From positions 1 through 48,962 of the forward strand of contig NZNM01000116.1 of assembly GCA_002694885.1 (NCBI GenBank): a DNA stretch of 48,962 bases, read 5' to 3'. Origin of the DNA: Opitutaceae bacterium (GTDB lineage Bacteria > Verrucomicrobiota > Verrucomicrobiia > Opitutales > Opitutaceae). Positions 28,441 to 45,106 of this stretch are shown here, piece by piece. The stretch's first letter is position 1. Every line of letters begins with the position of its first letter. The notes beneath the pieces were generated by a model. The model ran no database searches. It was not told where the DNA came from and saw only the letters and a program-made list of their open reading frames with translations. Both the position numbers and the translations under genes were made by a program.

Positions 28441-29757
28441 ATGCTTTTGCAGGAAAAAGACGGATTCAAAACTCTACGCAGCGCCTTGCTGAACCCAGTA
28501 ACCGATACTGAGTGCGAGTACTACTTCGACGCATTGATAGTCGCTGAAAGCTTTGACGGGCATACGACGATCGTGGAGGTCGGCGAGGCAGACGCGATCT
28601 CCCGAAAACGCGGTTGGCAGCTAGAGGAGTTTGCCAAGCTGGAAGGTGTAATCCTTCCCGCGTTTTACGATGTACACTTTCATTGGGTTCAAGACGATGT
28701 CCGCCAAAAGCCAAAAGCGTCCCTTCTGGAATGGCTCGAAAAGCATACCTTTCCCGAAGAGGCCCGCTTTTCCGACTATGACTATTGCGAAGCCAAAGCA
28801 GCCTTCTTTTGGTCGCGCATAATATCTACCGGAACAATCGGAGGACTTTGCTATAGCTCAACTCACTCTACCGCCTTGGACGCAGCCATGCGCCACGCGT
28901 CCGAGGGATTTAAGATCGGGAATGTTCTCATGAACATGAGCTGCCCCGACTATCTGATACAGTCTTCAGAAGAAGCGATCCAATCCGTTCATAATGGGAC
29001 CAACGCATACGAGAGTCGCTACTGCGTTACTCCTCGTTTCGCTCCCACTACCAGCCCTGACGTGATGTCTGAAGGCGCCCGAGTAGCAAAGGATAACGGG
29101 CTATTCGTGCAGACTCATCTTTGCGAGACGACCGACGAGATTCAGCATACGCTCAATCTCTATCGAGATATTCCCGGGTTCGAGGACATCAGCAGTTATA
29201 CTGAAATTTACGCGCGCTGTGACATGCTAGGCCCAAAAACTGTAATGGGTCATTCTATACACTTCGAACAAGATGAGTGGGATATGCTTGCCGATTCGAA
29301 TACCGCCATCGCCAGCTGCCCAACCTCCAATGCTCCCATAGAAGACTTAGGTCTAGGTTCAGGACTATTCGACTTCGAGAAAGCCGAGGAACGAGGAATT
29401 CGCTGGGCCCTTGCTTCCGATATCGGTGGCGGCCCCTACTTATGCATGTTTGATGTCATTGACTCCTTTGAACGGCAAAACCGGTACGCCGGCAAGAGTG
29501 GCGACCATCACATCAAAGCCCTGTACCGCTCCACTCAAGCTGGCGCGGAGATTCTCGGCTTCGGTGATACCCGAGGCAATATATCCGTGGGCAAGCGCCT
29601 AGACTGTATCCAATGTGTCGCCACGCGTGGAATCGAACCGGATGCGACTTCTGCGAGCGTCCTCAAAGCGATTATCAGCCAAGTATCTGAACGAGGACAG
29701 TTTGAAGCGCTAGTATCTGCGACCGTCGTCAACGGGGAGATTCTCTATGAAGCCTGA
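28441..29757 (+). CDS. guaD: Guanine deaminase (amidohydrolase type)
   Basis: The 438-aa protein has the guanine deaminase blocks: LPAFYDVHFHW (metal His79 and His81), CVTPRFAPTTSPD, FVQTHLCET, MGHSIHFEQDEW, SCPTSNAPIEDLGLGSG and ALASDIGGGPYL. It converts guanine to xanthine and ammonia in the cytoplasm. It heads the long operon and overlaps xdhC by 11 bp, so its product passes straight to xanthine dehydrogenase. Length matches the family (about 430-450). A second, unrelated CDA-fold deaminase at 44092-44568 could act on a similar base. Confidence 0.92.
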   Translation: MLLQEKDGFKTLRSALLNPVTDTECEYYFDALIVAESFDGHTTIVEVGEADAISRKRGWQLEEFAKLEGVILPAFYDVHFHWVQDDVRQKPKASLLEWLEKHTFPEEARFSDYDYCEAKAAFFWSRIISTGTIGGLCYSSTHSTALDAAMRHASEGFKIGNVLMNMSCPDYLIQSSEEAIQSVHNGTNAYESRYCVTPRFAPTTSPDVMSEGARVAKDNGLFVQTHLCETTDEIQHTLNLYRDIPGFEDISSYTEIYARCDMLGPKTVMGHSIHFEQDEWDMLADSNTAIASCPTSNAPIEDLGLGSGLFDFEKAEERGIRWALASDIGGGPYLCMFDVIDSFERQNRYAGKSGDHHIKALYRSTQAGAEILGFGDTRGNISVGKRLDCIQCVATRGIEPDATSASVLKAIISQVSERGQFEALVSATVVNGEILYEA

Positions 29758-30769
29758 GGATTTTTCAGCGAGCGGATTGGCAAAAAGCCAATCGTCTAAT
29801 TTCGGCAAGGGCAATGAGTTCTGGAATGCCGCCTTTGGGGAACTGGTCCGAGGGAAAAGCGTTCTACTCACCATAGTCGCCAGCTGCCGAAAAGGCTCCC
29901 CGGGAACTCCGGGAGCCAAGATGCTACTGCTGGAAGATGGGCGAAAAATTGGCACCATTGGGGGCGGGATCATGGAAGCCCGAGCTTTAGATCAAGCTCA
30001 AGCGGCACTCGTTTCCGACTACTATCAGCCGAGGCTGGAAGAAGTAGACCATTGGCTAGGCTCAAAACGGCCGTCCGGCTTGATTTGCGGCGGAGGTCAA
30101 TCAAACGTAACAGCTCGACTCAGCCCTAACCAGGATTTAGATACAATTAGAGGGTTCATTTCCGATGGAATCTCAGATACGCCTTCTAGCCTGGAAATTA
30201 GCCCTCGCGGAATCAGGCTAGCCAATCAAAACGGCTCGCCTCTCTTTTCCCAAAGACTATTTCAAGAAGGCGAAAGCTGGAAATTCGAATTGGGCTCTGT
30301 CAATTTAAGGCGTTGCGTAATCTACGGGGCTGGGCATTGCGGGCAAGCCCTGGCCAGGCAATTAAGGTGGCTTGGATACAAAGTGGAGATTTTCGACGCC
30401 CGCCCAGAACAACGAGCAAAGCTTGCTACTCTAGGAATAGAGTCATCAAGTATAGGCCTTCCTAGCGAATCCTTAGTCAAAGTCCGATTTCCTCAGAACG
30501 CCTCCGCGATCGTAATGACACACTCTTACGAAAGCGATGTCGAGGCTCTCGGATTCGCTCTTAAACAGGACTTCCCATTCATTGGTCTGATGGGCAGCCC
30601 TCCAAAACTCGAGCGTATTCGAAAATCGCTCACGGGCAGAGGTATTAGTCGAGCCCAAATAGATAGGATCACTTGTCCTGTGGGAATAGAAATCGGGAGC
30701 GATACTCCCGAAGAGATCGCTGTTAGCGTTGCCGCCCAAATTTTACAAAGGGAGAAGATCGGGCAATGA
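29747..30769 (+). CDS. xdhC: XdhC-type xanthine dehydrogenase accessory protein
   Basis: The 340-aa protein has the XdhC/CoxI N-terminal block RKGSPGTPGAKMLLLEDG followed by GTIGGGIMEA, and a C-terminal Rossmann region with IYGAGHCGQALARQLRWLG and FDARPEQ. A MTHSYESDVEAL segment and IGLMGSPPK complete the pattern. XdhC binds the molybdenum cofactor, assists its sulfuration and inserts it into the large Xdh subunit. The gene overlaps guaD by 11 bp and xdhA by 4 bp. Confidence 0.92.
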   Translation: MKPEDFSASGLAKSQSSNFGKGNEFWNAAFGELVRGKSVLLTIVASCRKGSPGTPGAKMLLLEDGRKIGTIGGGIMEARALDQAQAALVSDYYQPRLEEVDHWLGSKRPSGLICGGGQSNVTARLSPNQDLDTIRGFISDGISDTPSSLEISPRGIRLANQNGSPLFSQRLFQEGESWKFELGSVNLRRCVIYGAGHCGQALARQLRWLGYKVEIFDARPEQRAKLATLGIESSSIGLPSESLVKVRFPQNASAIVMTHSYESDVEALGFALKQDFPFIGLMGSPPKLERIRKSLTGRGISRAQIDRITCPVGIEIGSDTPEEIAVSVAAQILQREKIGQ

Positions 30770-32196
30770 GCTTGAAGAAACCGATCACCTTTATTCTCAA
30801 CGATGAGACCATCACGACCGAGGTGGCGCCCAACCTCGTCGCATTGGATTACCTTCGCCAACATCGCTCTCTCACAGGCTCTAAACAAGGCTGTAAAGAG
30901 GGAGATTGCGGGGCTTGCTCAGTGATTCTTGGCGAGTTCGTTGAAAATTCCATTCGCTACCGGGCAGTCACTTCCTGCCTACTGCCAATGGGCGAGCTAC
31001 ACGGAAAACACTTAGTCAGCATCGAGGGCATCAATCTGGAGGATCTTTCCCCCATACAGAAGTCGATGGTCGAATGCGGAGGAACTCAGTGCGGCTACTG
31101 CACGCCTGGTTTTGTTGTCGCCATGACGGCCGGTCTCATGGATGAATCCATCCCGCTCGACGACTCCGGAGCTGACTACGCTATTTCGGGCAATCTTTGC
31201 CGTTGCACGGGCTATCGCTCGATCAAGGAGGCGGGCCGCACCGCAATCGCGGAAATCGAATCCGAAATTGTCGATCGACCCCGTATTGAGGCCTTATGCG
31301 AGTCGGGAGTTCTGCCACGCTATTTTCGGGAGATTCCGACACGTCTTAGGGCAATTCCCCCTGCCAAAATCGATTCGCCGAACAAGGCTCCCTTCATCGC
31401 AGGCGGCACGGATCTGTTTGTGCAGCAAGGCGAAGAGTTGCCAAGAATACGAGCGACGCTACTGAACACTGCCCCTCCGGAGCCTATCCGTGTTGAGAAT
31501 TCCTATGTCGTCGTCGATGCTCGCGAAACCTTTGAATCATTCGGACGCCACCCTGCCATTCGGGAATGCATCCCATCAATTGCTGAATACAACGACGCTA
31601 TCGCTAGCTGGCCAATCAGAGAGCGGGCCACCCTGGGAGGCAACATTTGCAACGCTTCACCGATCGCCGACATGACCACCCTCCTTCTGGCGATGGAATC
31701 CGAGCTCCTGATTAGCGGGCCGGATTCCGAGCGCTGGCTACCCCTATCGAATTTCTATCTCGGCTATAAACGCCTGGCGAAAACTCCGGAAGAGCGAGTA
31801 ACACTCGTCCGTTTTCCACAACGGGAGGCGGGCGCGTTTATAAACTGGGAAAAAGTATCCAAAAGACGTGTACTAGATATCGCTACTGTCAACTCCGCCG
31901 CCAAGATAGGAATCGAGAATGGTCGGATCGCTTCCGCCACGCTCGCGTTGGGAGGCGTAGCCGCAACTCCGCTCGTACTTTCAGATGCCTCTGAGAAACT
32001 TGTCGGGCTTCCCCTGGATATCGATTCAATCGGGACAGTTATCGATTCGGCCCAAAATGAGTTCAAACCAATCAGCGACGTTAGAGGAGACGCTTCCTAC
32101 AAGCGTTTGCTTGCTCGCCAGCTTCTTTGGGCTCACTTCCAGAAAATAATCTCCGAAAGTATGGACGAGGAAGCACTGTATGAAGCACTGCGATAG
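30766..32196 (+). CDS. xdhA: Xanthine dehydrogenase, iron-sulfur and FAD subunit
   Basis: The 476-aa protein joins two [2Fe-2S] domains to an FAD domain. The plant-type ferredoxin cysteines are 43, 48, 51 and 71; the second cluster has Cys104/109/112 region CGGTQCGYC and Cys145/147 in NLCRCTGY. The FAD domain shows FIAGGTDLFVQQGEE and RATLGGNICNASPIADM. It carries electrons from the molybdenum site to FAD and NAD+. It overlaps xdhC by 4 bp and xdhB by 17 bp, fitting the XdhA/XdhB two-subunit enzyme of bacteria such as Rhodobacter. Confidence 0.95.
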   Translation: MSLKKPITFILNDETITTEVAPNLVALDYLRQHRSLTGSKQGCKEGDCGACSVILGEFVENSIRYRAVTSCLLPMGELHGKHLVSIEGINLEDLSPIQKSMVECGGTQCGYCTPGFVVAMTAGLMDESIPLDDSGADYAISGNLCRCTGYRSIKEAGRTAIAEIESEIVDRPRIEALCESGVLPRYFREIPTRLRAIPPAKIDSPNKAPFIAGGTDLFVQQGEELPRIRATLLNTAPPEPIRVENSYVVVDARETFESFGRHPAIRECIPSIAEYNDAIASWPIRERATLGGNICNASPIADMTTLLLAMESELLISGPDSERWLPLSNFYLGYKRLAKTPEERVTLVRFPQREAGAFINWEKVSKRRVLDIATVNSAAKIGIENGRIASATLALGGVAATPLVLSDASEKLVGLPLDIDSIGTVIDSAQNEFKPISDVRGDASYKRLLARQLLWAHFQKIISESMDEEALYEALR

Positions 32197-34456
32197 CGCT
32201 CTTCACGTGACAGGCCAGTCCAACTACGTCGATGATGTTCCTAATCCGGCGGGGATGCTCCATGGAGCATTTTTTGGATCTCCAGTCGCTCATGGCCTTA
32301 TCAAGAGCGTGGATACGACGAAAGCAGCCCAAATCCCAGGCGTAGTATCTGTTTTTACTTACGAAGACATTCCGGGAGATGGTATGATCGGAGGCGTAGT
32401 CGCAGATGAGCCGCTGCTAGCATTCCAGGAGACTAGTTTTCACGGTCAGCCAATCGCTTTAATTGTCGCTGAAACCGTAGAAGCGGCTCGCGATGGAGCA
32501 AAGGCGTGCGAACTAGAAATTGAAGAACTCCCTCCAATCACCTGTCCCCGCAAGGCGTTCGAGAAGGGGCAAATCCTTCAAGAGCTCAGAGTTTTCGAAA
32601 AGGGTTCTGTGGGTGATGCTTGGAAGGACTGCGAGTATATCATATCCGGAAGCGTCGACCTGGGAGGTCAAGAACACCTCTATTTGGAAACCAATCGATC
32701 ACGGGCTATTCCTAAAGAAGACGATCAAATTCTGATCTATTCCTCAACTCAAAGTCCGTCTGCGGTTCAAAAGGAAGTCGCGTCCGTGCTGGGCTTGCCC
32801 ATGCACAAAATCGAGATCGACGTTAAGCGCCTAGGAGGCGGTTTCGGTGGGAAAGAGGATCAAGCTACTCATTGGGCGTGCCACGCCGCACTCGCCTCTC
32901 AATTGCTAAAACGACCGGTTCAAGTCGTTCTCAGCCGGGCAGATGACATGCGGATGACAGGCAAGCGCCACCCTTACAAACAGGACTACAAAATAGGGCT
33001 GGACGCGAAAGGCAATATTCTAGCGTATGATGTTTTTCATTACCAAAACTCTGGAGCCTTTATGGATCTCTCGAATCCCGTTCTGGAAAGAACATGCCTC
33101 CACTCGACGAACGCCTACGCCATACCCAATGTGAGGATTTCAGCCGTGCCTTGCCGAACGCATTTGCCCTCGAATACCGCCTTTCGGGGCTTTGGTGGGC
33201 CGCAAGGGATGTTTCCTATCGAAGTTGCAATTGATGCGGCCTCTAAGCAGATGGGATTGCCAGCCTGGAAAATCCAGGAGATCAATCTAGCCAAGAAAAA
33301 CTACGTTTTCCACTATGGCCAGGAACTAGAAGACGATAGACTCAGTCGATGCTGGGATGAGGCGGCCCGGGCATTCGAATTCGAAGAAACGCAAAACCGC
33401 GTTGAAGCATTCAATTCAGAAAATCGTTTTAAGAAAAAGGGGTTAGCCGTTATGCCGGTTTGCTTCGGCATTAGCTTCACCAAAACCTTTTTCAACCAAG
33501 GCAGCAGCCTGGTTCATGTCTACACAGACGGCAGCGTTTCAGTCGCTACGGGAGGCATCGAAATGGGTCAAGGAGTCAGCTCCAATATGATCGAAATCTG
33601 CTCACGGAGTTTAGGCATACCCGTTTCGCAAATCAAATCCAACAGCACCAACACTTCCCGAATCGCAAACATCTCCCCTAGCGCTGCCAGCGCTACAACC
33701 GACCTCAACGGCAACGCTACCATAATCGCCTGCAACAAGATACTAGATGGCATGAAGCAAGTAGCTGCCGAGGATCTCGGGTGCGACTCATCTGTAATAT
33801 CTATTGAAAACGCCAAAGTGCTCAAGGACGGAACCGATACCGGGCTTAGCTGGAACGACCTTGTATCCAAAACCTACATGTCCCGGGTTCCGTTGATGGC
33901 CCACGGTTTCTATACGCCTCCAAATATCCACTTCGATGGAGTTAAAGGTTACGGACGACCCTTTCACTACTACACTTACGGCGCTTGCGTCGTAGAGGCT
34001 ACCGTCGACTGTCTCCGTGGCGTGTACAAGATCGACTCAGCTCGGCTAACTCATGACCTCGGCCGCGGCATCATCCCCAGCGTAGACCTCGGGCAAGTGG
34101 AAGGCGGGCTCGCTCAGGGAATTGGATGGGTCACGCTGGAGGAACTCAAGTTTTCAGAGGATGGGCGTCTGCTTTCCAACGCCCTATCCACCTACAAGTG
34201 CCCTGATGGCGATTTCCTACCTGACAATATGGACGTCCGCTTTCTGGAGAATGCCGACAACCCTGGCGGGCCGCTAGGGAGCAAAGCCGTAGGCGAACCC
34301 CCTTTCATGTACGGAATCGCCGCTTTCTTCGCCATTAGAAACGCCATTCATGCCTTTTCGCCCGTCAACACCAGCGAAACCGTGTGCCCTATGACGCCAG
34401 AACAAACGCTAAAGCTTTTGTATCCAAATTTTTCTTTTAGCGAGGATATCGCGTGA
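32180..34456 (+). CDS. xdhB: Xanthine dehydrogenase, molybdopterin-binding subunit
   Basis: The 758-aa protein has the molybdenum hydroxylase blocks: RLGGGFGGKEDQA, NTAFRGFGGPQGM with the substrate-orienting Arg, GGIEMGQGVSSNM, and the catalytic GSKAVGEPPFMYG with Glu at residue 706. It oxidises hypoxanthine to xanthine and xanthine to urate. The length matches XdhB rather than aldehyde oxidase fusions. It overlaps xdhA by 17 bp and the urate oxidase gene by 4 bp (GTGA), so urate is produced and consumed by adjacent products. Confidence 0.95.
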   Translation: MKHCDSALHVTGQSNYVDDVPNPAGMLHGAFFGSPVAHGLIKSVDTTKAAQIPGVVSVFTYEDIPGDGMIGGVVADEPLLAFQETSFHGQPIALIVAETVEAARDGAKACELEIEELPPITCPRKAFEKGQILQELRVFEKGSVGDAWKDCEYIISGSVDLGGQEHLYLETNRSRAIPKEDDQILIYSSTQSPSAVQKEVASVLGLPMHKIEIDVKRLGGGFGGKEDQATHWACHAALASQLLKRPVQVVLSRADDMRMTGKRHPYKQDYKIGLDAKGNILAYDVFHYQNSGAFMDLSNPVLERTCLHSTNAYAIPNVRISAVPCRTHLPSNTAFRGFGGPQGMFPIEVAIDAASKQMGLPAWKIQEINLAKKNYVFHYGQELEDDRLSRCWDEAARAFEFEETQNRVEAFNSENRFKKKGLAVMPVCFGISFTKTFFNQGSSLVHVYTDGSVSVATGGIEMGQGVSSNMIEICSRSLGIPVSQIKSNSTNTSRIANISPSAASATTDLNGNATIIACNKILDGMKQVAAEDLGCDSSVISIENAKVLKDGTDTGLSWNDLVSKTYMSRVPLMAHGFYTPPNIHFDGVKGYGRPFHYYTYGACVVEATVDCLRGVYKIDSARLTHDLGRGIIPSVDLGQVEGGLAQGIGWVTLEELKFSEDGRLLSNALSTYKCPDGDFLPDNMDVRFLENADNPGGPLGSKAVGEPPFMYGIAAFFAIRNAIHAFSPVNTSETVCPMTPEQTLKLLYPNFSFSEDIA

Positions 34457-35658
34457 GTCCGGAATTGATAGATTTCTTCAACATTGTTTTTCGCTACACT
34501 CATGTGGTCGCGGCAATCATGTGGATCGGAAACTCGCTCCTCTTTACATGGATGGAGATCAATCTTCTTAAGCGAGACGGCGATGATGATCTAATCGGCT
34601 ACCTCGATATGCTGCACGGCGGAGGCGTCTTCCACCTGCAAAAGCGGCAGCTTCGCCCCGACGCCATCCCAAGGCCTCTTCACTGGTTCTACTGGCAAAG
34701 TTATACAACCTGGCTTTCTGGCTTTGCCTTGCTGGTGACCTACTTCTTCACTCGAGCCGATACGCTTATTCTCGATCCAGCCAAGACCGACCTACCCGGC
34801 TACGCCGGCATTATAATCAGCCTAGGCGGGATCTTCGGGGGATGGTTTCTATTCGATCTCTACTGGCGTAGTAACTTGAGGAACTACCTCATCGCCGGTG
34901 GTATTGCTTGGTTTTTTATCATTGTCGTCTACACCGCTGCCTTGGATTCGGTTTTCAATGCTCGGGCAGTTTACCTTCAAGTCGGAATGACCTTGGGCTC
35001 ATTCATGACGGCCAACGTATTTTTCCATATCATACCGAATCAAAAGAAAATGATGAAGGCCCTGGAGACGGGCCAAGAACACAGCCTCACTGTTGGCAAG
35101 GCGGCGAAGTTCCGGTCGTTGACCAACCACTACATAACATTTCCAGTGATTTTCATGATGCTTAGCGCTCACTTCCCCATACTTTACGGATCTGAGCAAA
35201 ACGTTCTTATACTCGCTCTGATTATCGCCGCTCTAATCATCATCAAACTGATGATGAACCAGCGCAATCGTTTCAAACCCTGGCTTGCCGTTCTCATTGG
35301 AACCTTCGTAGCTACTACCGCGTCCATAGCGGCCATTCTATCGATACCCGACCCTGCTTCTCCCCAATTAAGTCCAGCTGCAGAGACGGGCAAAGACGTA
35401 TTCAGCCAGCTTGGATGCGTCGCTTGCCATCAGGGCGCGAATGTTTCCATAGCCCCAAATCTGTCTGGCATCTTTGGGGAGACTAGAGAGCTAGCCGACG
35501 GATCCGAGGTCTTCGTAGATGAGGCCTATCTTCGCGAGTCAATCCTGTCGCCCAACGCTAAGATCGCCAAGGGCTATGCTTCAGCTATGCCCATCTACGG
35601 AGCCATGGTAAACGAGGAACAAATTAGTCAGCTTATCGCCTACATCAAAGAGCACTGA
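34453..35658 (+). CDS. puuD: Membrane-bound urate oxidase with cytochrome c domain (PuuD-type)
   Basis: The 401-aa protein begins with a membrane domain of about eight spans (HVVAAIMWIGNSLLFTWME early, RSLTNHYITFPVIFMM later), the urate hydroxylase domain known from Agrobacterium PuuD. It ends with a c-type cytochrome domain: Cys322-Val-Ala-Cys325-His326 (haem attachment) and MPIYGAMV near the C-terminus carrying the probable Met ligand. It oxidises urate to 5-hydroxyisourate and passes electrons to the respiratory chain instead of O2, so no H2O2 forms. The start is GTG, overlapping the xdhB stop. Soluble uricase is absent from the window. Confidence 0.92.
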   Translation: MSPELIDFFNIVFRYTHVVAAIMWIGNSLLFTWMEINLLKRDGDDDLIGYLDMLHGGGVFHLQKRQLRPDAIPRPLHWFYWQSYTTWLSGFALLVTYFFTRADTLILDPAKTDLPGYAGIIISLGGIFGGWFLFDLYWRSNLRNYLIAGGIAWFFIIVVYTAALDSVFNARAVYLQVGMTLGSFMTANVFFHIIPNQKKMMKALETGQEHSLTVGKAAKFRSLTNHYITFPVIFMMLSAHFPILYGSEQNVLILALIIAALIIIKLMMNQRNRFKPWLAVLIGTFVATTASIAAILSIPDPASPQLSPAAETGKDVFSQLGCVACHQGANVSIAPNLSGIFGETRELADGSEVFVDEAYLRESILSPNAKIAKGYASAMPIYGAMVNEEQISQLIAYIKEH

Positions 35659-36954: not shown

Positions 36955-38313
36955 ATGAGCGATTCCCTTCTCATCGAAGATATCAGTTATCTCGTTCTAG
37001 CCGATTCGGATCAAACCGTTTTGGAAAACGCATGGGTTTGGATCGAAAACGGTTTCATAAAAGACCTCGGATCGGGAGAAGTCCCCGAAGATGCTGGCGA
37101 CGCGCCGAAACTCTCCGGTCAGGGGAAAATCGCTACGCCTGGACTAGTCAATACGCACCATCACTTTTATCAAAACATGGCCCGAGCTTATACGCCGGGA
37201 AACAACCTGCCCCTGCTGCCCTGGCTGGAGCGGATGAATAAGCTCTGGAAACGCTTCCGCGAGGATGATCTTCAAGTCTGCACCCAGCTGGGGATCGCGG
37301 AGCTTATGATGAGCGGAGCAACGACAATCGCCGACCATCACTATGTTTTCACCGAGGGATCCACAGACATGACCCTCCATCAATTCAAAGCCGCCTCGAA
37401 AATGGGAGTCCGTCTTCACGCCAGCCGCGGCTCCATGAACCAGAAATCCGATCTTATCTCAGATTGGGCGTTGCAGGATGAGGATACCATCCTAGCTGAC
37501 ACGGAATCGTTGATACAAACTCAACATGACAATTCTCCCGGGAGCTATCGGCAAGTTATCGTCGCCCCCTGCGCCGCCACCTCATGCACCAAGTCGCTCC
37601 TTGAAGCGAGCGCCGCTTTGGCCAAGAAATTCAGAGTCGGCTTGCACACGCATTGCGGCGAAACGGTGGCGGAAAACGATTTCTCTATCGAGCATTTCAA
37701 GGCCCGTCCTCTAGCCTACCTATTGGATTGCGGCTGGGACTACGACAAAGCCTGGCTAGCCCACGGCATTCACTTTAATGACGAGGAATTGTCTCTGCTT
37801 TCCCACTACGGCATTGGAGTAGCGCATTGCCCCAATGCCAACATGCGGCTCGGTTCAGGGATCTGCCGAGTACCCGAACTTATTGAAAGCGACGTTAAAG
37901 TCGGTATCGGAGTAGACGGCAGCGCTTCCAATGATTCGGGCCACATTCTCGGCGAACTCCGCCAAGCCCTGTACCTGGCGCGAGTAAAATATGGAGCCGA
38001 GTCGATGAGCGCCTTGGATGCCATAGAACTCGGCGCCTGGAGAGCCGCTCGAATGATGGGGCGCGATGATATTGGAGAATTAGCTGTCGGCAAATGCGGC
38101 GATCTAGCTCTCTTTCCAATTAACGATCTCTATGCCAACGCTGCGGAAAACCCTGTTGATGCCCTCTTGATCTGTCACCCGCGCCAAGTTTCGGACCTAG
38201 TAGTTGGCGGCTCGATACGTATCAAAGATGGAGCCTTTACCCACTTGGATATAGTAGAACTGATGAGTGAACACAGGCAGCGAGCCGAACGCGTCCGCTC
38301 CTCGGCTTTCTAG
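36955..38313 (+). CDS. 8-oxoguanine deaminase-like amidohydrolase
   Basis: The 452-aa amidohydrolase of the COG0402 group has GLVNTHHHFYQNMARAY (metal His68 and His70), LHASRGSMN, GLHTHCGET, LAHGIHFNDEE, VAHCPNANMRLGSG and VGIGVDGSASNDSGH. This pattern matches the family that holds Pseudomonas 8-oxoguanine deaminase (PA0142), often labelled hydroxydechloroatrazine ethylaminohydrolase. The expected reaction is 8-oxoguanine to urate plus ammonia, feeding the urate branch directly. A location 3 bp after pucG and inside a urate-degrading operon strongly favours this over triazine use. Confidence 0.82.
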   Translation: MSDSLLIEDISYLVLADSDQTVLENAWVWIENGFIKDLGSGEVPEDAGDAPKLSGQGKIATPGLVNTHHHFYQNMARAYTPGNNLPLLPWLERMNKLWKRFREDDLQVCTQLGIAELMMSGATTIADHHYVFTEGSTDMTLHQFKAASKMGVRLHASRGSMNQKSDLISDWALQDEDTILADTESLIQTQHDNSPGSYRQVIVAPCAATSCTKSLLEASAALAKKFRVGLHTHCGETVAENDFSIEHFKARPLAYLLDCGWDYDKAWLAHGIHFNDEELSLLSHYGIGVAHCPNANMRLGSGICRVPELIESDVKVGIGVDGSASNDSGHILGELRQALYLARVKYGAESMSALDAIELGAWRAARMMGRDDIGELAVGKCGDLALFPINDLYANAAENPVDALLICHPRQVSDLVVGGSIRIKDGAFTHLDIVELMSEHRQRAERVRSSAF

Positions 38314-38315: not shown

Positions 38316-38678
38316 ATGAATGTAATCAAAATCGAAGAGTGCCCAGACTATGTGGCTCCGGACAACGCGGTAGCAAAAGAATTCCTCTCCCCCCGGAACA
38401 GCGCTCTCGAACGTCTTAGCATCGCCGAGATAACGATTCCTCCGCATACTTCCGTAGAGAAACATTACCACTTGCAGAGCGAGGAAGTGTATCAGATTAT
38501 CGACGGCGAGGGATCTATGCTACTCGGCAAAGAAACACGCAAAGTCGGGCCTGGCGAAGTGGTTCCCATTCCTCCAGGAGCTTGGCATTCTATCGATAAC
38601 CAGAGTGATCAAGATCTCGTTATGATCGTGACCTGCTCTCCCCCATGGACGCCTGAAGACCAGGTTTTCGAATCATAA
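38316..38678 (+). CDS. Single-domain cupin protein of unknown role
   Basis: The 120-aa protein is a one-domain cupin. Motif 1 is HYHLQSEEVYQIIDGEG with His50, His52 and Glu56 or 57, and motif 2 is PIPPGAWHSIDN with His91, a full 3-His-1-Glu metal site. Ureidoglycine aminohydrolase of other purine pathways is also a cupin but has two domains and about 260 residues. The gene starts 2 bp after the deaminase gene and ends 9 bp before the EamA gene. An enzymatic step on a ureide is plausible but unproven; mannose-6-phosphate isomerase-like or sensor cupins are alternatives. Confidence 0.8.
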   Translation: MNVIKIEECPDYVAPDNAVAKEFLSPRNSALERLSIAEITIPPHTSVEKHYHLQSEEVYQIIDGEGSMLLGKETRKVGPGEVVPIPPGAWHSIDNQSDQDLVMIVTCSPPWTPEDQVFES

Positions 38679-38687: not shown

Positions 38688-39620
38688 TTGAAAACCGAGT
38701 TCTCTACGAGCCGTTCATTCGGCATTATCCTCGTTCTCATCTCCGGCGCTTGCTGGGGATTCCACGGCGTTATAATAAAGAAGGCCTACGCAGTTGGCGC
38801 TTCTTTCCAGCAAGTGTTTTTCGCCGAAACCCTCTTCGCATCCATTTTCTTCCTGTTTTTCATCCGCTCATTCGGGGGAAAGCAACGACCTCGAACTCCG
38901 AACCAATGGCGAGATCTCGCTATATGCGGGATCGCTAGCATGGCGCTCGGCACATTCCTATTTTTAGCTTTCAGCCTGGGTCCAATAGCTATCGGGGCGA
39001 CCCTACTTTTTCTCTACATGCCACAAGTTTACGGATACGCCGTTTTCACAGGGATACAGAGCTTTAGCTATTTGAAAACCTTCTCCATTTGCTTGCTTCT
39101 CGTCGGAGCTGGAGCCACGACGAACATACTGGGAGCTTTGAAGGGAGATGGCTTTACCGGGGCTATTCTCGCTGCCTTGGCGGCTTCAACCTCATACGCG
39201 ATTATCTTTCTGCTCACTCCCCGCCTCAGCTCCTTTACCAACGCCACATTTCGTTCCTTCTCCATATCATTCATCTGCTTCCTAGGAAGCGGGGCTATGC
39301 TCCTCGCGTTTCCGTTCATGAGAAACCACGAGCCTATTGAATGGCTGCCTTTCTTGGCCCTAGCTCTTGTTCTCGGACTTCTGGGCCAAACGATTCCAGT
39401 GATAACGCTAATGAAGGGCATCCCAATCGTGGGTAGCAGCATCGCCGGAGCCCTCGCCTCCATCGAGCTGCCAGTCGCTGTGATCTCGTCGGCGATTTTC
39501 CTAGGGGAAACCGTTACCATCACTCAGTCCCTCGGTGTGGCTCTCGTATTCATCGGAATCTTACTGTTTAATCTTCCCACCCAAAACGCTGAGCTAAAAC
39601 CAAAGGCCGCAACGCCATGA
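38688..39620 (+). CDS. EamA/DMT-family transporter
   Basis: The 310-aa protein has ten predicted spans in two EamA repeats, with ISGACWGFHGVIIKKAYA at the start and LALVLGLLGQTIPVITLMKG and AGALASIELPVAVISSAIFLGE in the second repeat. The start is a TTG at 38688, giving MKTEF. It overlaps uraD by 4 bp, so it is probably made with the urate enzymes. It may export or import a purine-derived compound, for example a ureide or excess nucleobase. The substrate cannot be read from the sequence. Confidence 0.85.
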   Translation: MKTEFSTSRSFGIILVLISGACWGFHGVIIKKAYAVGASFQQVFFAETLFASIFFLFFIRSFGGKQRPRTPNQWRDLAICGIASMALGTFLFLAFSLGPIAIGATLLFLYMPQVYGYAVFTGIQSFSYLKTFSICLLLVGAGATTNILGALKGDGFTGAILAALAASTSYAIIFLLTPRLSSFTNATFRSFSISFICFLGSGAMLLAFPFMRNHEPIEWLPFLALALVLGLLGQTIPVITLMKGIPIVGSSIAGALASIELPVAVISSAIFLGETVTITQSLGVALVFIGILLFNLPTQNAELKPKAATP

Positions 39621-40135
39621 ATTCCGAAGAGATCCCCATAGATAAGCTTAACCGGATGCAAGACGACGAGTGGATAACACTCTTGGGAAAACTCTACGAG
39701 CACTCGCCATGGGTAGTGGAAGAAGCCGTCAAAGGCCGTCCTTTCTCAGATAAGAAAGCCCTGCAAGCGCGCTTCGAGAGCGTAATATTCGGAGCAGAAG
39801 AGGAGATGCAAAGCCAGCTCATCACTGCCCACCCCGATTTAGCCGCAAAAATGGACGAGCTTGCTAAGCTCACCGACTTCTCCCAATCCGAACAGACAAG
39901 GGCTGGATTCTCATCCCTTCCCCGAGACACCTTCAATACTCTCCGGGAAACTCTCGCCAATTATCGGCAGAGGTTCGGGCACCCTTTCATACTTTGCGTT
40001 TCCGACCACAGCGCCTCGGAAACGCTACCCATCCTTCAACAACGCCTGCAAGCATCGCCGAGATCGGAGCGCTTGGCTTGCTTAGCCCAGATCGCCCGAA
40101 TCGGCTGGCACCGACTAGACGCAATCGTATCCTAA
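39617..40135 (+). CDS. uraD: OHCU decarboxylase
   Basis: The 172-aa protein has the UraD blocks YEHSPWVVE, ITAHPDLAAK (catalytic His region), SEQTRAGFSSL and RFGHPFILCV. It decarboxylates 2-oxo-4-hydroxy-4-carboxy-5-ureidoimidazoline to (S)-allantoin. Length is normal. It overlaps the EamA gene by 4 bp and is followed by uraH after 13 bp, so the two enzymes after urate oxidation are made side by side. Confidence 0.94.
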   Translation: MNSEEIPIDKLNRMQDDEWITLLGKLYEHSPWVVEEAVKGRPFSDKKALQARFESVIFGAEEEMQSQLITAHPDLAAKMDELAKLTDFSQSEQTRAGFSSLPRDTFNTLRETLANYRQRFGHPFILCVSDHSASETLPILQQRLQASPRSERLACLAQIARIGWHRLDAIVS

Positions 40136-40148: not shown

Positions 40149-40502
40149 ATGAGCGGAAAACTGAGCACACACATTCTAGACAATTACCACGGTTGCCCCG
40201 CGCCGAACGTCGACATAGAACTCCATCAACTCGACGGAGAGTCATACCGACTGATCGGTAAATTCCGAACGAATCAAGAAGGGCGAACCGATTCTCCAAT
40301 GCTAAACGATGAATCTCTGCAAACGAGTCCCTACCGTCTCGTATTCAAGATTGGCGCTTATTTCAAGGAAACGGGCGTTTCTCTTCCTGAACCCGCTTTC
40401 CTAGAGAACATATCTATCGACGTAAACCTGAGAGCGGGGGAAAGCTATCACGTTCCTCTTCTCTGCACGCCCTGGAGTTATTCAACCTACCGAGGGAGTT
40501 AA
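40149..40502 (+). CDS. uraH: 5-hydroxyisourate hydrolase (transthyretin-like)
   Basis: The 117-aa protein begins with LSTHILDNYHG (His of the active site), has RLIGKFRTNQEGR in the middle, YHVPLLCTPWSYSTYRGS at the end, and the C-terminal YRGS tetrapeptide that marks HIU hydrolases rather than transthyretin. It opens 5-hydroxyisourate to OHCU. No signal peptide is seen, so it is cytoplasmic. Its stop codon overlaps the start of allC (TAATG). Confidence 0.95.
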   Translation: MSGKLSTHILDNYHGCPAPNVDIELHQLDGESYRLIGKFRTNQEGRTDSPMLNDESLQTSPYRLVFKIGAYFKETGVSLPEPAFLENISIDVNLRAGESYHVPLLCTPWSYSTYRGS

Positions 40503-41761
40503 TGATAAGAGAATCGCACATCGAAAACATTCACCGCCGCCTTATCGAGCGTATCGAAATATTGGGGGCGATCAGCTCGAGCGCCGAAAGTCTCACCCGA
40601 GTTTTCCTATCCAAGGAAATGGACATCGCCTCTCGGCTAATTCAGTCGTGGATGAACACGGCCGGTCTCGTATCCAACATCGATCCCTTCCAGAACGTTA
40701 TTGGCTCTTGGCCTTCGAACACCGCAAAAGCGCCCTCTATTCATATCGGATCTCACTACGATACCGTAGTAGAAGCAGGCAAGTACGATGGCGTTCTAGG
40801 AGTTCTTCTCTCAATCGGAGCAATCGAGCTCCTGCAGGCGGAAGGGTATGCTCCCAAACACCACATAAACGCTCTCGCGTTTTGCGATGAGGAAGGCGTC
40901 CGCTTTCAAACGACTTTTCTCGGCAGTTCGCTGCTTTGCGGCGCTTTCGATGATTCCGCCTTGGACAAAGTCGACTCCGAAGGGATGAGTATGCGAGAGG
41001 CTTTTCTAGCCCGTGGCTTCAATCCCGATAACATCGCCCACATAGCTCCAATAATCGGAGGGGACGACGTTTTCCTAGAAGCCCATATCGAACAAGGTCC
41101 CGTGCTCGAAGCTAGCGGCCATCCTTTAGGAGTCGTTACCGCCGTAGCGGCCCAAACGCGTATCGGCGTGGCGGCTACAGGGAAGGCAGGCCATGCGGGA
41201 ACGACACCCCACGACCTTCGGACCGATGCTCTCGCCTGCGCTGCGGAGATGATTCTCGCGGTAGAGCATTTCGCCCTCGCCCGTCCAGAGGTTAAAGCAA
41301 CCGTTGGAAAACTAGAGATCTCGCCTAACGCAAGTAACGCGATTCCTGGCAGAGCCGACTTTTCCATCGACTTTCGAGCCCCCGACCTAGGACGGCTGAG
41401 AGAGCTCAAAATAGATCTTCTCAGAGAAATCGAATCCATTGCGGAGCGACGCTCGATCAAAATCGACATCCAGAACATTCAGGAAACTTCCCACGCCAAT
41501 TGCGACCCAGTGGTAACGAAGCTTATTTCTGGAGCGGTCGCCGCCAACACGGGACAGGTAACCGAGCTCTTCAGCGGAGCTGGCCATGATGCCATGAAAA
41601 TAGCTGAGACCTGCCGTATCGGCATGCTATTCGTGCGCTGCCAGGACGGATTGAGCCATCACCCAGATGAATTCGCGGAATCCTCGGATATACTGGAAGC
41701 CCTTCGCTCAATGGCGGATATCATAAAACGCGTCGATCAAAACGCTTTTGCCCACATGTAA
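40502..41761 (+). CDS. allC: Allantoate amidohydrolase (M20 family)
   Basis: The 419-aa M20 amidohydrolase has GSHYDTVVEAGKYDGVLG (metal ligands His85 and Asp96, with Asp87), FCDEEGVRF with the catalytic Glu pair (130-131), EAHIEQGPVLE and GKAGHAGTTPHDLR from the dimerisation domain, and GAGHDAM near the end. It releases ammonia and CO2 from allantoate to give (S)-ureidoglycine. N-carbamoyl-amino acid hydrolases share these motifs, but the position between uraH and allB makes allantoate the expected substrate. It overlaps uraH by one base. Confidence 0.9.
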   Translation: MIRESHIENIHRRLIERIEILGAISSSAESLTRVFLSKEMDIASRLIQSWMNTAGLVSNIDPFQNVIGSWPSNTAKAPSIHIGSHYDTVVEAGKYDGVLGVLLSIGAIELLQAEGYAPKHHINALAFCDEEGVRFQTTFLGSSLLCGAFDDSALDKVDSEGMSMREAFLARGFNPDNIAHIAPIIGGDDVFLEAHIEQGPVLEASGHPLGVVTAVAAQTRIGVAATGKAGHAGTTPHDLRTDALACAAEMILAVEHFALARPEVKATVGKLEISPNASNAIPGRADFSIDFRAPDLGRLRELKIDLLREIESIAERRSIKIDIQNIQETSHANCDPVVTKLISGAVAANTGQVTELFSGAGHDAMKIAETCRIGMLFVRCQDGLSHHPDEFAESSDILEALRSMADIIKRVDQNAFAHM

Positions 41762-41764: not shown

Positions 41765-43114
41765 ATGCACGACCGCATTATTCGCAACGTTCGCCTGCTC
41801 GAGGCACAAGGCTGGCAAGAAGCTGACTTGGCAATCGACCAAGGCCGTTTTTCAGCGATTGGCAAAGTGTCCGAGGCGGGGAAAGAGGTCTTCGATGGAG
41901 AAGGTTCTTTTTGCTTTCCCGGAGGCGTTGATCTCCATGTACATTTTAACGAGCCAGGGCGCGCCCATTGGGAGGGATTCTCAACCGGTTCTCTCGCAGC
42001 CGCTGCGGGCGGTTGCACCATGGTGGCAGAAATGCCTCTAAACAGCATACCCTCGACCACTTCGGTTGAAGCTCTAGATAAGAAACTCGCTTCAATAGGC
42101 TCAAAATCCAGCGTCGACTTCTCTCTCTGGGGCGGACTCGTGCCAGGAAATTTAGAGTCCATTCATCCCCTAGCGGACGCAGGAGTGATCGCTTTCAAAG
42201 CTTTCATGTCGCCTAGCGGGACTGATGATTTCATAAACTCGGACATCGCGACCTTGAGAGAGGGCATGAAGCGTATAGCCCCCACAGGGAAATTTCTCGC
42301 TCTCCACGCCGAGGACCCGGCAATCCTGAATCCATCGAACCAAAAACTTTCCCAACGCAAGAGCGCATTCGATTGGGAAGCCAGTCGACCCGTGGAAGCG
42401 GAAATTAGCGCTATCCAGATCGCTATCGAACTGGCTGGCGAAACAGGTTGTCCCATTCACATCGTCCACGTTAGCTCTGCCCAAGCGCTCGATCCGATAA
42501 TCGAAGCTAAAAACAACGGGGTTGATATAAGCTGCGAAACCTGCCCCCACTACTTGCTTCTTTCCATCGAGGATGCGGACAGGATAGGTCCGGACGCCAA
42601 GTGCGCTCCGCCACTCCGGTGCCGATACTCTATCGATATACTCTGGAAAAGTCTCGAGAATGGGGAGATCGATACCATCGGCTCCGATCACTCGCCCTGT
42701 CCTCCCGAAATGAAGACTGGCCTGAGTTTCTACGACGCTTGGGGCGGCATAAGCGGATTGCAACATGGCCTGCCGCTCCTTTGGAGCCAATGCTCGGAGA
42801 ACCCCGAACTCCTCTCGCATCTAGTCCAGCTGAGCTCCTCGAGACCGGCCAAGAGAGCAAAACTCGGAGCCAAAGGCTCCATAGAAATCGGGAAAGACGC
42901 CGACTTCGCTCTGGTCGATTCAAGTATGACGCCCAAAGAAATCAGAGCCGACAATCTGGCCTATAAGCACCGAGCCAGCGCTTATTGCGGCATGCAGACT
43001 TCATTCGATATCCGCCAAACCTGGCTAAGAGGCGATCTCATCTACGAAAATGGAAAGGCCATCTGTGAACCATCTGGAGCGTTTTGCCGGGCAGTTGACA
43101 ATTGGAGACGGTAA
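41765..43114 (+). CDS. allB: Allantoinase
   Basis: The 449-aa amidohydrolase has DLHVHFNEPGRAHWEGF (His58 and His60), the carboxylated Lys145 in VIAFKAFMSPSG, LALHAEDP, HIVHVSSAQAL, CETCPHYLLL and IGSDHSPCPPEM. The EPGRxxWEG motif is typical of allantoinase rather than dihydropyrimidinase or dihydroorotase. It hydrolyses (S)-allantoin to allantoate, the substrate of AllC encoded 3 bp upstream. A short hairpin (CGGGA-AAC-TCCCG, 43117-43129) follows, without a T-run. Confidence 0.93.
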   Translation: MHDRIIRNVRLLEAQGWQEADLAIDQGRFSAIGKVSEAGKEVFDGEGSFCFPGGVDLHVHFNEPGRAHWEGFSTGSLAAAAGGCTMVAEMPLNSIPSTTSVEALDKKLASIGSKSSVDFSLWGGLVPGNLESIHPLADAGVIAFKAFMSPSGTDDFINSDIATLREGMKRIAPTGKFLALHAEDPAILNPSNQKLSQRKSAFDWEASRPVEAEISAIQIAIELAGETGCPIHIVHVSSAQALDPIIEAKNNGVDISCETCPHYLLLSIEDADRIGPDAKCAPPLRCRYSIDILWKSLENGEIDTIGSDHSPCPPEMKTGLSFYDAWGGISGLQHGLPLLWSQCSENPELLSHLVQLSSSRPAKRAKLGAKGSIEIGKDADFALVDSSMTPKEIRADNLAYKHRASAYCGMQTSFDIRQTWLRGDLIYENGKAICEPSGAFCRAVDNWRR

Positions 43115-43172
43115 ATCGGGAAACTCCCGCTATTCCGTCACTCGATGGCAGGCTTTATGCTAAATGTGGCTT

Positions 43173-44084
43173 ATGAGTTCGAGTATCCCTCTTATCGATT
43201 TCAGTGGAATGTTGAGCGACTCCATCGCGGAACGCAAAGCTCTGGCAGAGGCGGTCGATCGAAGTGCTAAGGAAGTCGGATTCATGTATATAAACAACTG
43301 TGGAATCGCTCCGGAAACGGTGAAGGCAGTAATGGCGACGGCTCGACGCTTTTTCGGGATGGATTCCGAATCCAAAAATGAATTCCTATTCGACCAAGAG
43401 CTGAACTTCGGATACCACGGCATGGGTAAGGAGGCCCTAGATCCAAGTAAGCCGGCGGACCAAAAAGAGACGTTCACTATGCGGAATGTATCCAAACTAT
43501 ATAGTCAATCTGAGCTTTGGCCCAGCTTTCACTACAGACAGGTCGCGTGCGATTTTTTCGCAGACTGCCAGCGACTCGCCGATAGACTGATGAGCGCCTT
43601 CGCTCTGGCATTGGATCTTCCGGAGGGTTTCTTCGCCAACAAGCACACGGGAATCTTGCAAACGCTTCGATTTCTACACTACCCGCCAGCAAAGGTTGAG
43701 TCCTCTGGACAACTCGGCGCAGGAGCCCATAGCGACTATGGAACCCTAACGCTTCTATTTCAAGACCAGTCGGGCGGACTCGAGGTTCAGGACTCTGAGG
43801 GGAACTGGATTCCTGCTCCGCCAATAGAGAACGCCGTTGTCATCAACACAGGCGACCTTTTGGCTCGATGGACCAATGACGTCTATCGATCAACACCGCA
43901 TCGAGTGCAAGTCCGGCCAGCAGACGCGGCCAATGGCCGCCTGTCTATCGCCTTCTTCTCCGATCCGGATCCAGACGTTCTTGTAGAGACTCTTCCATCG
44001 TGCGTGTCCGAGCAAAATCCAAAGAAGTACGCGCCTATATCCGCGAGCGACCATATTCTGGAAAGAATAGCCGCCACGAACTGA
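43173..44084 (+). CDS. 2-oxoglutarate/Fe(II) oxygenase, isopenicillin N synthase-like
   Basis: From the ATG at 43173 the protein (about 303 aa; an ATG three codons earlier is also possible) begins SSSIPLIDFSG and has the full iron and cosubstrate site: His186 and Asp188 in AHSDYGTLTLL, His243 in STPHRV, and Arg256 with Ser258 in RLSIAFF. A NFGYHGMGKEAL segment lies in the N-terminal part. The family hydroxylates or oxidises diverse small molecules. A similar oxygenase (PA0147) sits near the 8-oxoguanine deaminase (PA0142) and an adenosine deaminase (PA0148) in Pseudomonas, which suggests a purine-derived substrate. It precedes the CDA-type deaminase by 7 bp. Confidence 0.88.
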   Translation: MSSSIPLIDFSGMLSDSIAERKALAEAVDRSAKEVGFMYINNCGIAPETVKAVMATARRFFGMDSESKNEFLFDQELNFGYHGMGKEALDPSKPADQKETFTMRNVSKLYSQSELWPSFHYRQVACDFFADCQRLADRLMSAFALALDLPEGFFANKHTGILQTLRFLHYPPAKVESSGQLGAGAHSDYGTLTLLFQDQSGGLEVQDSEGNWIPAPPIENAVVINTGDLLARWTNDVYRSTPHRVQVRPADAANGRLSIAFFSDPDPDVLVETLPSCVSEQNPKKYAPISASDHILERIAATN

Positions 44085-44091
44085 CCCTATC

Positions 44092-44568
44092 ATGGACGAA
44101 GACATTCAGGCCCGGTTGCTGAATACGGCAAACGAGGTCGCCATCAAAGCCGTTGGGGAAGGGCATCATCCATTCGGAGCCATTCTCGTCGGCCCGGATC
44201 TTGAAACCGTTCTAATGCGTCAAGGGAATGTGAATACGGTACAGCATGCGGAATCGGAACTCGCTCGCCGGGCCTATCTCGAGTACGATCCCGACTATCT
44301 TTGGGAATGCGCCCTCGTCACCACCTTAGAGCCCTGCGCCATGTGTTCCGGAACGATCTATTGGGCGAATATCGGCACAGTCGTTTACGGCGCCTCGGAA
44401 ACGGATCTGAAAGAGCTAACCGGAGCGGATCCTGAAAACCCGACAATGAATCTCCCTTGCAGAACCGTCTTCGCTTCTGGCCAGAAGAATCTCAAAGTCT
44501 ACGGGCCCTTGCCAAACCTCAGAGATTTCATGCTGGCTCCCCATAAAGAATTTTGGAATAGACAATAA
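44092..44568 (+). CDS. CDA-fold nucleoside/nucleobase deaminase
   Basis: The 158-aa protein has the cytidine-deaminase fold zinc site: His52 and catalytic Glu54 in QHAESELARR, and Cys82 and Cys85 in EPCAMCSGTIYWANIG. HHPFGAILVG precedes it. The SGTIYWANIGTVVYGA text resembles the guanine deaminase (GuaD of Bacillus) and nucleoside deaminase group more than tRNA adenosine deaminase TadA. Guanine deamination would duplicate the operon's first gene, so a product of the oxygenase next door is an attractive alternative substrate. Length is normal. Confidence 0.85.
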   Translation: MDEDIQARLLNTANEVAIKAVGEGHHPFGAILVGPDLETVLMRQGNVNTVQHAESELARRAYLEYDPDYLWECALVTTLEPCAMCSGTIYWANIGTVVYGASETDLKELTGADPENPTMNLPCRTVFASGQKNLKVYGPLPNLRDFMLAPHKEFWNRQ

Positions 44569-44593
44569 ACGTATCCTAGGGCTAGACATCTGC

Positions 44594-45106
44594 ATGATGG
44601 ATATAGCGATACGGCCTTACCGCGTTGAAGACGCCAAACCGGTATTCGAAGCGATAGAAGAGTCGAAAGACGACATAATGCAATGGATGCCTTGGTGTCA
44701 TCCCGATTATTCCATCGAGGATTCGAAGAGCTATTTGGCGATTAGCGTGACCGGCTTCGAAAGAGGCGAAATCTATGACTTCGCTGTGCTGAGAGATGGT
44801 CACTTCGTTGGAGCCTGCGGCTTGAACCAAGTCAATGTCATCGAGGGCGTCGCCAATATGGGATACTGGCTTCGGTCCAGCGAAGCAGGGAATGGCATCA
44901 TGCCCATGGCAGCAAAGAAAGTCATAAACTGGGCTTTCGAGAATACGGAATTGAACCGTATCGAAATCGTCGCCGCAGTCGGAAACAATAGGAGCCAACG
45001 TGTCGCGGAGAAGATAGGGGCCCATAAAGACGCTGTTCTCGCTAAACGCATCCTCATTGATGGCAAACCATGTAGTGCCGTTCTCTACTCAGTTATTAAA
45101 GACTAG
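44594..45106 (+). CDS. GNAT-family acetyltransferase (RimJ/RimL-like)
   Basis: The 170-aa protein has the GNAT pattern of the RimJ/RimL group: IRPYRVEDAKPVFEAI at the start, FVGACGLNQVNVIEG, ANMGYWLRSSEAGNG and NRSQRVAEKIGAHKD near the acetyl-CoA site. It would acetylate an amino group, of an N-terminus or a small molecule. It is the last gene of the operon, 25 bp after the deaminase. Its stop shares the palindrome CTAG with the stop of the convergent transporter gene. The link to purines is by position only. Confidence 0.85.
   Translation: MMDIAIRPYRVEDAKPVFEAIEESKDDIMQWMPWCHPDYSIEDSKSYLAISVTGFERGEIYDFAVLRDGHFVGACGLNQVNVIEGVANMGYWLRSSEAGNGIMPMAAKKVINWAFENTELNRIEIVAAVGNNRSQRVAEKIGAHKDAVLAKRILIDGKPCSAVLYSVIKD

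Follow-up and report, generated by a model that had tools for sequence, protein, structure and literature searches.

Gene content of the run

The window analysed here is a stretch of 48,962 nucleotides from contig NZNM01000116.1 of an Opitutaceae bacterium (Verrucomicrobiota), whose genome comprises 3.68 Mb in 165 contigs and is 97.4% complete. In the list of open reading frames (ORFs) of the window, positions 28441-45106 hold a run of 16 ORFs, all on the plus strand, which probably consists of a 15-gene operon for purine catabolism (28441-44568) and a following GNAT gene of the lineage's own. Genes were named with Pfam, with NCBIfam at its curated cut-offs and by comparison with the PDB. Because several proteins miss the curated NCBIfam cut-offs, their names are given as "-like" or "type".

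The first gene (28441..29757) encodes a guanine-deaminase-like amidohydrolase (GDA; PF01979), whose best PDB match is the guanine deaminase 6ohb (1.1e-55) and whose scores with NF006679/TIGR02967 (266.6 and 259.1 bits) lie below the cut-offs of 351 and 375.4. It is followed by an XdhC-type maturation factor (29747..30769; PF13478, PF02625), an XdhA-type xanthine dehydrogenase Fe-S/FAD subunit (30766..32196; best match TIGR02963, 333.7 bits, cut-off 467) and an XdhB-type molybdopterin subunit (32180..34456; best match TIGR02965, 769.2 bits, cut-off 849.5). For XdhC, TIGR02964 (136.3 bits, cut-off 161.6) comes second to the model XdhC_rel_AOR (151.6 bits, cut-off 350). Next stand PuuD, a predicted membrane urate oxidase with a C-terminal cytochrome c (34453..35658), and an aminotransferase (35668..36951) that is, judged by PDB comparison, of the ureidoglycine-glyoxylate type (UGXT/PucG): its best matches are 3nnk (1.5e-156) and 3isl (2.5e-122), and UGXT and PucG structures score 524.9 and 412.2 bits against 270.3 bits for alanine-glyoxylate enzymes. 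An 8-oxoguanine-deaminase-like amidohydrolase (36955..38313; PDB 3hpa, 7ww2) reaches 478.9 bits with NF006055, below the cut-off of 532, yet this is the best of 27 families.

The second half of the run opens with a small single-domain cupin (38316..38678; PF07883), which has weak PDB matches only, and an EamA-family transporter (38688..39620; PF00892). Above their cut-offs lie the decarboxylase of 2-oxo-4-hydroxy-4-carboxy-5-ureidoimidazoline (OHCU; 39617..40135; TIGR03164, 135.8 bits, cut-off 96.25), the 5-hydroxyisourate (HIU) hydrolase (40149..40502; TIGR02962, 113.2 bits, cut-off 87.45) and the allantoinase AllB (41765..43114; TIGR03178, 516.1 bits, cut-off 357.85). An M20-family protein of the allantoate amidohydrolase type lies between the latter two (40502..41761); it passes the wider TIGR01879 alone (334 bits, cut-off 204) and stays below the cut-off of the allantoate-specific NF006775 (438.7 bits, cut-off 479). 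A 2-oxoglutarate (2OG)/Fe(II) oxygenase of the DIOX_N (isopenicillin-N-synthase-like) kind, predicted to act on a base (43173..44084; PF14226+PF03171), precedes the last conserved gene, which encodes a deaminase with the cytidine deaminase (CDA) fold (44092..44568; PF00383) whose nearest solved relative is guanine deaminase 1tiy (1e-10). The GNAT acetyltransferase (44594..45106; PF13302) probably stands outside the unit. Curated cut-offs back the gene names of an earlier note on this DNA only in part: AllB, HIU hydrolase and OHCU decarboxylase clear them, and guanine deaminase, 8-oxoguanine deaminase, XdhA/B/C and the allantoate-specific model fall short. That account had also omitted the UGXT/PucG aminotransferase, the PuuD type of the urate oxidase and the surrounding purine genes.

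Spacing and gene order

The 15 junctions of the run measure, in order, -11, -4, -17, -4, +9, +3, +2, +9, -4, +13, -1, +3, +49, +7 and +25 bp. The largest, between AllB and the oxygenase, is 49 bp when counted from ATG 43164 and 58 bp from ATG 43173; the latter codon aligns with the sole possible start found in the orthologues of G010, a genome of the same genus, and G246, a genome of another family. The 16 one-strand genes, the tight junctions (-17 to +25 bp) and the 58-bp gap before the oxygenase, counted from 43173, are as the earlier note had described them.

Promoter-like sites on both strands of 27700-45900 number 9 against a shuffle mean of 13.4 (standard deviation 3.7), and two of the nine sit upstream of the run; terminator-like sites number 16 against 19.8 (standard deviation 3.8). 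Neither kind is in excess over shuffles in this interval, which bears on the internal promoters and terminators that, according to the earlier note, would speak against a single operon. None of either kind is listed in the gap between AllB and the oxygenase. The two upstream sigma-70-like sites at 28304 and 28338 fall in a stretch that is poorly conserved in G010, so neither is named here as the operon promoter. A search with Rfam gave no match to the xanthine (NMT1) riboswitch in the window or in 27700-28700. The stretch just before the operon (27790-28260) contains a disrupted gene, whose longest open stretch is 92 codons, compared with an ORF of 134 amino acids in the aligned region of G010; it may be a remnant of a VOC/glyoxalase-family gene.

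Gene order in relatives was mapped by tblastn with the window proteins. The order GDA-XdhC-XdhA-XdhB-PuuD-aminotransferase-8-oxoguanine deaminase-cupin-EamA-OHCU decarboxylase-HIU hydrolase-M20-AllB-2OG-CDA is kept for all 15 genes in G010, for 14 of 15 in G029 (2OG missing) and for 13 of 15 in G018 (EamA and AllB missing), the last two being other genera of the same family and the absences referring to the locus only. Two fragments of G008, a further member of the genus, match the order as well. Gaps in these relatives are mostly short, apart from two of 51-55 bp in G010 and, in G018, one of 182 bp and one of 167 bp; an overlap of -101 between 2OG and CDA in G010 is taken as an artefact of automated start choice. 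The GNAT gene, in contrast to the other 15, has no relative at the corresponding place in G010 or G008, nor in any fetched locus of the relatives at E <= 1e-3, and is ruled out as a member. The unit is therefore one of 15 genes (28441-44568), and of the 16-gene operon claimed earlier the strand, spacing and conserved order fit, the GNAT gene being the part that drops out. Nor is the arrangement unique to this window: it is whole in G010 and nearly so in G018 and G029, and a large PuuD operon is described for SAR11 in the available part of a published report (PMC11698098).

We read the run as one operon because its genes share a strand, the gaps are short and the order is kept in relatives. Two or more transcription units, namely GDA to AllB and, apart from it, 2OG-CDA(-GNAT) driven by a promoter of its own within or ahead of the gap, are unlikely. 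Such a division would fall at the largest gap of the run (49/58 bp), whose counterparts span 51 bp in G010 and, in G018, 167 bp, and G246 has the oxygenase without urate genes nearby; against it, the gap lacks any listed promoter- or terminator-like site, and G010 and G008 preserve both the order and the close spacing.

PuuD and the aminotransferase core

The product of 34453..35658 is, judged by its domains and context, a PuuD-type urate oxidase. Its membrane domain Urate_ox_N (DUF989, PF06181) is full length (residues 5-292 of 401) and passes the Pfam cut-off with 282.4 bits, and the C-terminal cytochrome c (PF00034) contains the CxxCH motif CVACH. In Agrobacterium fabrum, deletion of puuD abolished urate degradation, and the accessible part of that study argues for electron transfer through cytochrome c (PMC4562309). 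The canonical uricase Uox (PF01014) was not found in the genome by a search that was positive in 2 of 14 control genomes; HIU hydrolase and OHCU decarboxylase are thus present without a detected Uox, as a PuuD route expects.

PuuD is a patchy trait. Within the class, 24 of 384 genomes, the own included, have a match at E <= 1e-30. At least 66% identity is reached in 5 of 57 genomes searched, again counting the own; five further genomes of the 57 have full-domain relatives at 34-38%, and most other matches cover the cytochrome part only. Eight of the 24 PuuD loci, at most 20 kb each, as well as those of G010, G028 and G036, were read by mapping with window proteins. G121 has a comparable one-strand run of XdhB, XdhC, CDA, PuuD, M20 and AllB, and in G193 and G382 an OHCU decarboxylase gene stands beside PuuD with an XdhC relative on the opposite strand. 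No such run was seen in the remaining fetched loci, where divergent genes could escape this mapping.

An aminotransferase of this kind (E <= 1e-110) occurs in 5 of 384 genomes, including the own and G010. Outside these two, in G038, G251 and G268, UGXT stands beside OHCU decarboxylase, HIU hydrolase, M20 and AllB in that order, as in the window, with a phosphoesterase gene interposed between M20 and AllB in G038. A canonical uricase adjoins UGXT in G251 (L088 17979-18914) and G268 (L090 17182-18117), and the G038 locus showed no uricase and no PuuD. The loci of G251 and G268 differ from the window in having the soluble uricase PF01014 instead of PuuD and in being split over two strands. Since the same core genes occur there with Uox, PuuD here fills the slot that Uox occupies in these related genomes.

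A proposed route from guanine to oxalurate

The 15 genes probably make up the following route. Guanine and 8-oxoguanine would be deaminated by the two amidohydrolases, and xanthine would be oxidised by a molybdenum enzyme, XdhAB, matured by XdhC. At the membrane, PuuD would oxidise urate and hand the electrons to cytochrome c, and HIU hydrolase, OHCU decarboxylase, allantoinase and the M20 amidohydrolase would lead on to ureidoglycine. The UGXT-type enzyme would then convert ureidoglycine and glyoxylate to oxalurate and glycine, at which the route would end. Neighbouring phosphorylases, adenosine deaminase (ADA)-family genes and a LOG-like gene may feed in nucleosides and nucleotides, and permeases of the UraA type may bring in bases. 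The 2OG oxygenase and the CDA-type deaminase most likely provide an accessory step through which a modified base enters the route. We infer the single transcript, the substrate of every enzyme and this accessory step. Read in this way, the locus would encode a compact PuuD-based route from guanine to oxalurate in Verrucomicrobiota.

Ratios of nonsynonymous to synonymous substitution (dN/dS) against G010 are 0.05-0.22 for 14 of 15 genes (HIU hydrolase gave no value), a pattern that fits purifying selection. Several points weigh against the proposed operon and route. The dN/dS ratios are rough, dS being near saturation (0.84-2.12). Gaps of 182 and 167 bp make more than one promoter possible in G018, and the loci without EamA and AllB (G018) or without 2OG (G029) show some genes to be dispensable. 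This PuuD is present in only 3 of 11 genus members, the own included. The guanine and 8-oxoguanine deaminases, XdhA, XdhB, XdhC and the allantoate-specific model all score below curated cut-offs. AllG, ureidoglycolate lyase and urease were not found in the genome, and the fate of oxalurate has no enzyme assigned. Allantoicase was likewise not found, but no control genome was positive for it, so that its absence is not established.

Neither the enzyme families nor this kind of operon is new, a large purine operon with PuuD having been published already. The SAR11/SAR116 operon has PuuD, XDH subunits, TadA-like purine deaminases, HIU lyase and OHCU decarboxylase among its pathway genes, as far as the available part of the report goes (PMC11698098). 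According to the same text, the SAR11 route ends in PuuE allantoinase, allantoicase and ureidoglycolate lyase and thus in urea, whereas the window has AllB, an M20 amidohydrolase and UGXT; the window further adds the amidohydrolase-type guanine- and 8-oxoguanine-deaminase-like genes as well as the 2OG oxygenase, and belongs to a different phylum. On pSymB of Sinorhizobium meliloti (CP140948.1), puuD, xdhB, xdhC, guaD, uraH and allantoinase lie in one region, as in the window, but on both strands, with regulators interposed and with an allantoicase branch, according to an incomplete gene table. The puc genes of Bacillus subtilis include Xdh, allantoinase and a PucG-type aminotransferase, as does the window, and are combined with a Uox-type uricase and spread over several operons instead of PuuD in one run.

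The 2OG oxygenase

The less ordinary feature, and the point of interest, is the 2OG oxygenase inside the operon. Its best solved relative by sequence is thymine-7-hydroxylase (T7H; thymine dioxygenase 5c3p, 6.1e-48), which is also the top structural match of its predicted model (mean pLDDT, the predicted local distance difference test score, 73; C-terminus weak). The fold, the iron and 2OG residues and the stacking phenylalanine are common to the window oxygenase and T7H, and all 23 sequences compared, 18 of them plasmid-borne and 5 of the window type, retain the iron, 2OG and stacking residues. Places 87, 217 and 294 of T7H are occupied by Asn, Tyr and Asp in the window type. All five window-type proteins keep the iron triad, the 2OG residues and the equivalents of Phe292, Tyr217 and Asn87; substrate-contact residues differ in part, Asn294 being replaced by Asp and the place of Glu122 falling in a gap (alignment read by eye). 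The roles of these residues follow the available part of a study of T7H (PMC4787775). Because the equivalents of Asn294 and Glu122 are lacking, the oxygenase is not filed as T7H. Nor was the T7H-like pocket accepted as proof of a base substrate: judged by eye, 6jyv and the aligned ethylene-forming enzyme 9ovh also have equivalents of Arg190, Tyr217 and Phe292, and Phe292 is invariant among the 23 sequences.

Dioxygenases of a broadly similar kind are linked to the xanthine riboswitch. The accessible part of the paper on this element (PMC7373994) confines it to Proteobacteria and places it before isopenicillin-N-synthase-like dioxygenases, other DIOX_N-like genes and additional dioxygenases. 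Other linked genes named there are guanine- and 8-hydroxyguanine-deaminase-like amidohydrolases, nucleoside transporters and, rarely, tadA. For the 2OG dioxygenases, precise functions are described as not established, and purine substrates or purine oxidation are expected (PMC7373994). Several of these broad families meet in the window operon; the operon differs in that no xanthine riboswitch was found there, and the likeness of the oxygenases is one of broad kind. No xanthine riboswitch was found in eight scanned loci with oxygenase or Rieske relatives either, and among open-licence papers we found none on the function of this oxygenase. A DIOX_N oxygenase broadly of the riboswitch-linked kind is thus tied to purine genes outside Proteobacteria, whereby the purine substrates expected in the available text (PMC7373994) become assayable.

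A role of the oxygenase as a backup for Xdh, acting on unmodified hypoxanthine or xanthine, is improbable. The purine oxidation proposed for the riboswitch-associated dioxygenases, at least in the accessible text (PMC7373994), would suit this role; the operon, however, already has XdhABC. The fungal 2OG xanthine dioxygenase XanA belongs to another family, which also weighs against a spare for Xdh.

The oxygenase is rare in the class: at E <= 1e-60 it occurs in 3 of 286 genomes, the own included, and G008 and G018, which lie outside that sample, also have it. A scan of the genome contigs gave one oxygenase locus. G010, G008 and G018 retain the gene within the operon. In G246 it is part of a run EamA-2OG-P450-ADA with a permease alongside (L041/L042; 2OG at L042 518-1447).

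Plasmid homologues of the oxygenase

At E <= 1e-30, 132 plasmid records have a homologue of the oxygenase, from which one locus per genus was sampled for 14 of 32 genus names. We counted annotated nucleobase permeases, base or nucleoside deaminases and urate hydroxylases within about 8 kb, the neighbour types and the one-locus rule being fixed after the first loci had been seen. Such neighbours occur in 7 of the 14 genera (Klebsiella, Pseudomonas, Paraburkholderia, Moraxella, Streptomyces, Comamonadaceae and Paroceanicella). The "cytosine deaminase" of Paroceanicella is so by annotation alone: it does not match the window deaminases, and a similar Sulfitobacter locus says "amidohydrolase". Two further loci are suggestive, namely Acinetobacter, with a Rieske protein 34% like that of the window, and Pantoea, with an amidohydrolase 30% like the 8-oxoguanine-like one. 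Nothing clear was seen in the other five (Nostoc, Komagataeibacter, Sinorhizobium, Agrobacterium and Sulfitobacter), and the highest-identity homologues, those of Nostoc (40%) and Komagataeibacter (38-39%), have no purine neighbours in the loci read.

Nucleobase neighbours were found at none of six control loci of the PF13640 oxygenase family and in none of four 50-kb stretches of the test-set plasmids (about 12 windows of 17 kb), of which the Klebsiella stretch holds pyrimidine genes such as dihydroorotase. By one-sided Fisher tests, 7 of 14 gives p = 0.044 against the six control loci and p = 0.001 against all 18 controls; without Paroceanicella, 6 of 14 gives 0.078 and 0.003, the controls of both kinds being unmatched for catabolic context and the Beijerinckia control locus being only 9.5 kb long.

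These loci bear on whether the oxygenase, the CDA-type deaminase and the cupin only ride in the operon and have no purine role, which we consider doubtful. G029 keeps the rest of the run without the oxygenase, and the closest plasmid homologues (Nostoc, Komagataeibacter) and the five unclear genera of 14 would agree with mere passengers. Against this stand the oxygenase's place in the operon of G010, G008 and G018 and beside EamA, P450, ADA and a permease in G246, the annotated nucleobase neighbours in half of the 14 plasmid genera sampled, and its dN/dS of 0.064 against G010.

A bolder proposal goes beyond the accessory entry step preferred above, and we put it forward tentatively, at less than even odds: the oxygenase may be one of many nucleobase oxygenases, forming a widespread class, whose reaction is the hydroxylation or N-dealkylation of modified bases. 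Together with the deaminases of the CDA type and the 8-oxoguanine-like kind, it would then make the operon a gateway for damaged or methylated bases released in the turnover of RNA and DNA, and the class would show what the riboswitch-linked dioxygenases do.

The locus on the Klebsiella pneumoniae plasmid NZ_LN824134.1 (L092 2300-8954) looks like a methylxanthine demethylase cluster, its Rieske gene matching NdmB (1.4e-186). The same cluster has further Rieske-type parts, a glutathione S-transferase and the 2OG oxygenase, with an NCS2 permease near, and the plasmid is typed conjugative. The Klebsiella oxygenase differs from that of the window at two pocket places. Methylxanthine as the substrate of the window oxygenase is unsupported: the four Rieske-bearing loci (Klebsiella, Paraburkholderia, P. 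putida, Acinetobacter) each have one copy with Leu/Met at 87 and Trp at 217, in contrast to the Asn and Tyr of the window oxygenase.

Purine genes around the run

Further genes with a likely bearing on purines lie on both sides of the run. Upstream, on the plus strand, a purine-nucleoside phosphorylase (18205..19035; NF006054, 357.4 bits, cut-off 218) is preceded by a sub-threshold match to the phosphorylase superfamily with an apparent signal peptide (17133-17753). A third phosphorylase-superfamily protein (26940..27761, minus strand; PF01048) is nearest to methylthioadenosine/S-adenosylhomocysteine nucleosidase and stays below the NCBIfam cut-offs. The LOG-like (possible lysine decarboxylase family) protein (21102..22163, minus strand; PF03641) has a relative that adjoins GDA in G018 and G029. 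Farther upstream, an ORF of 1156 amino acids (10260-13730, minus strand) has no Pfam match at 1e-3.

Two paralogous permease-like proteins (22170..23804, minus strand, and 23915..25504, plus strand) share 43% identity. Neither has a Pfam match, and relatives stand beside ADA-family genes in G018 and G246. For the protein at 23915, which gave no hit in Pfam at 1e-3 and nothing meaningful in NCBIfam, a UraA-type fold is suspected from a weak model (mean pLDDT 51.3) that matches SVCT1, SLC26, AZG1 and UapA (best E 7.5e-5, TM-scores about 0.4), and base uptake is at most a fair guess.

Adjoining it is one of two ADA-family genes (25501..26511, plus strand; PF00962). The other (45821..46909, minus strand; PF00962) co-occurs with the operon and lies next to a member of the queuosine-precursor-transporter family (Vut_1; 45103..45816, minus strand; TIGR00697, 157.9 bits, cut-off 50.95). 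Of the 16 genomes searched, none but the 4 with the operon has relatives of this gene at 57-94% identity; among the other 12, the best ADA matches are at 42-50% in 11, and one has no match. Counting the own genome, the one-sided p is 1.6e-4, with the identity line set after the matches had been seen and kinship uncorrected.

Beyond this gene lies a Rieske oxygenase (47010..48119, minus strand), whose nearest solved relatives are the methylxanthine N1-demethylase NdmA (6icp, 2.9e-42) and SxtT (1.2e-38). Its likeness to NdmA is by similarity alone, and it is kept at 90% in G010. A 34% Rieske relative in G251 has AllB on one side and, on the other, an NMT1-type binding protein and then an 8-oxoguanine-deaminase-like gene.

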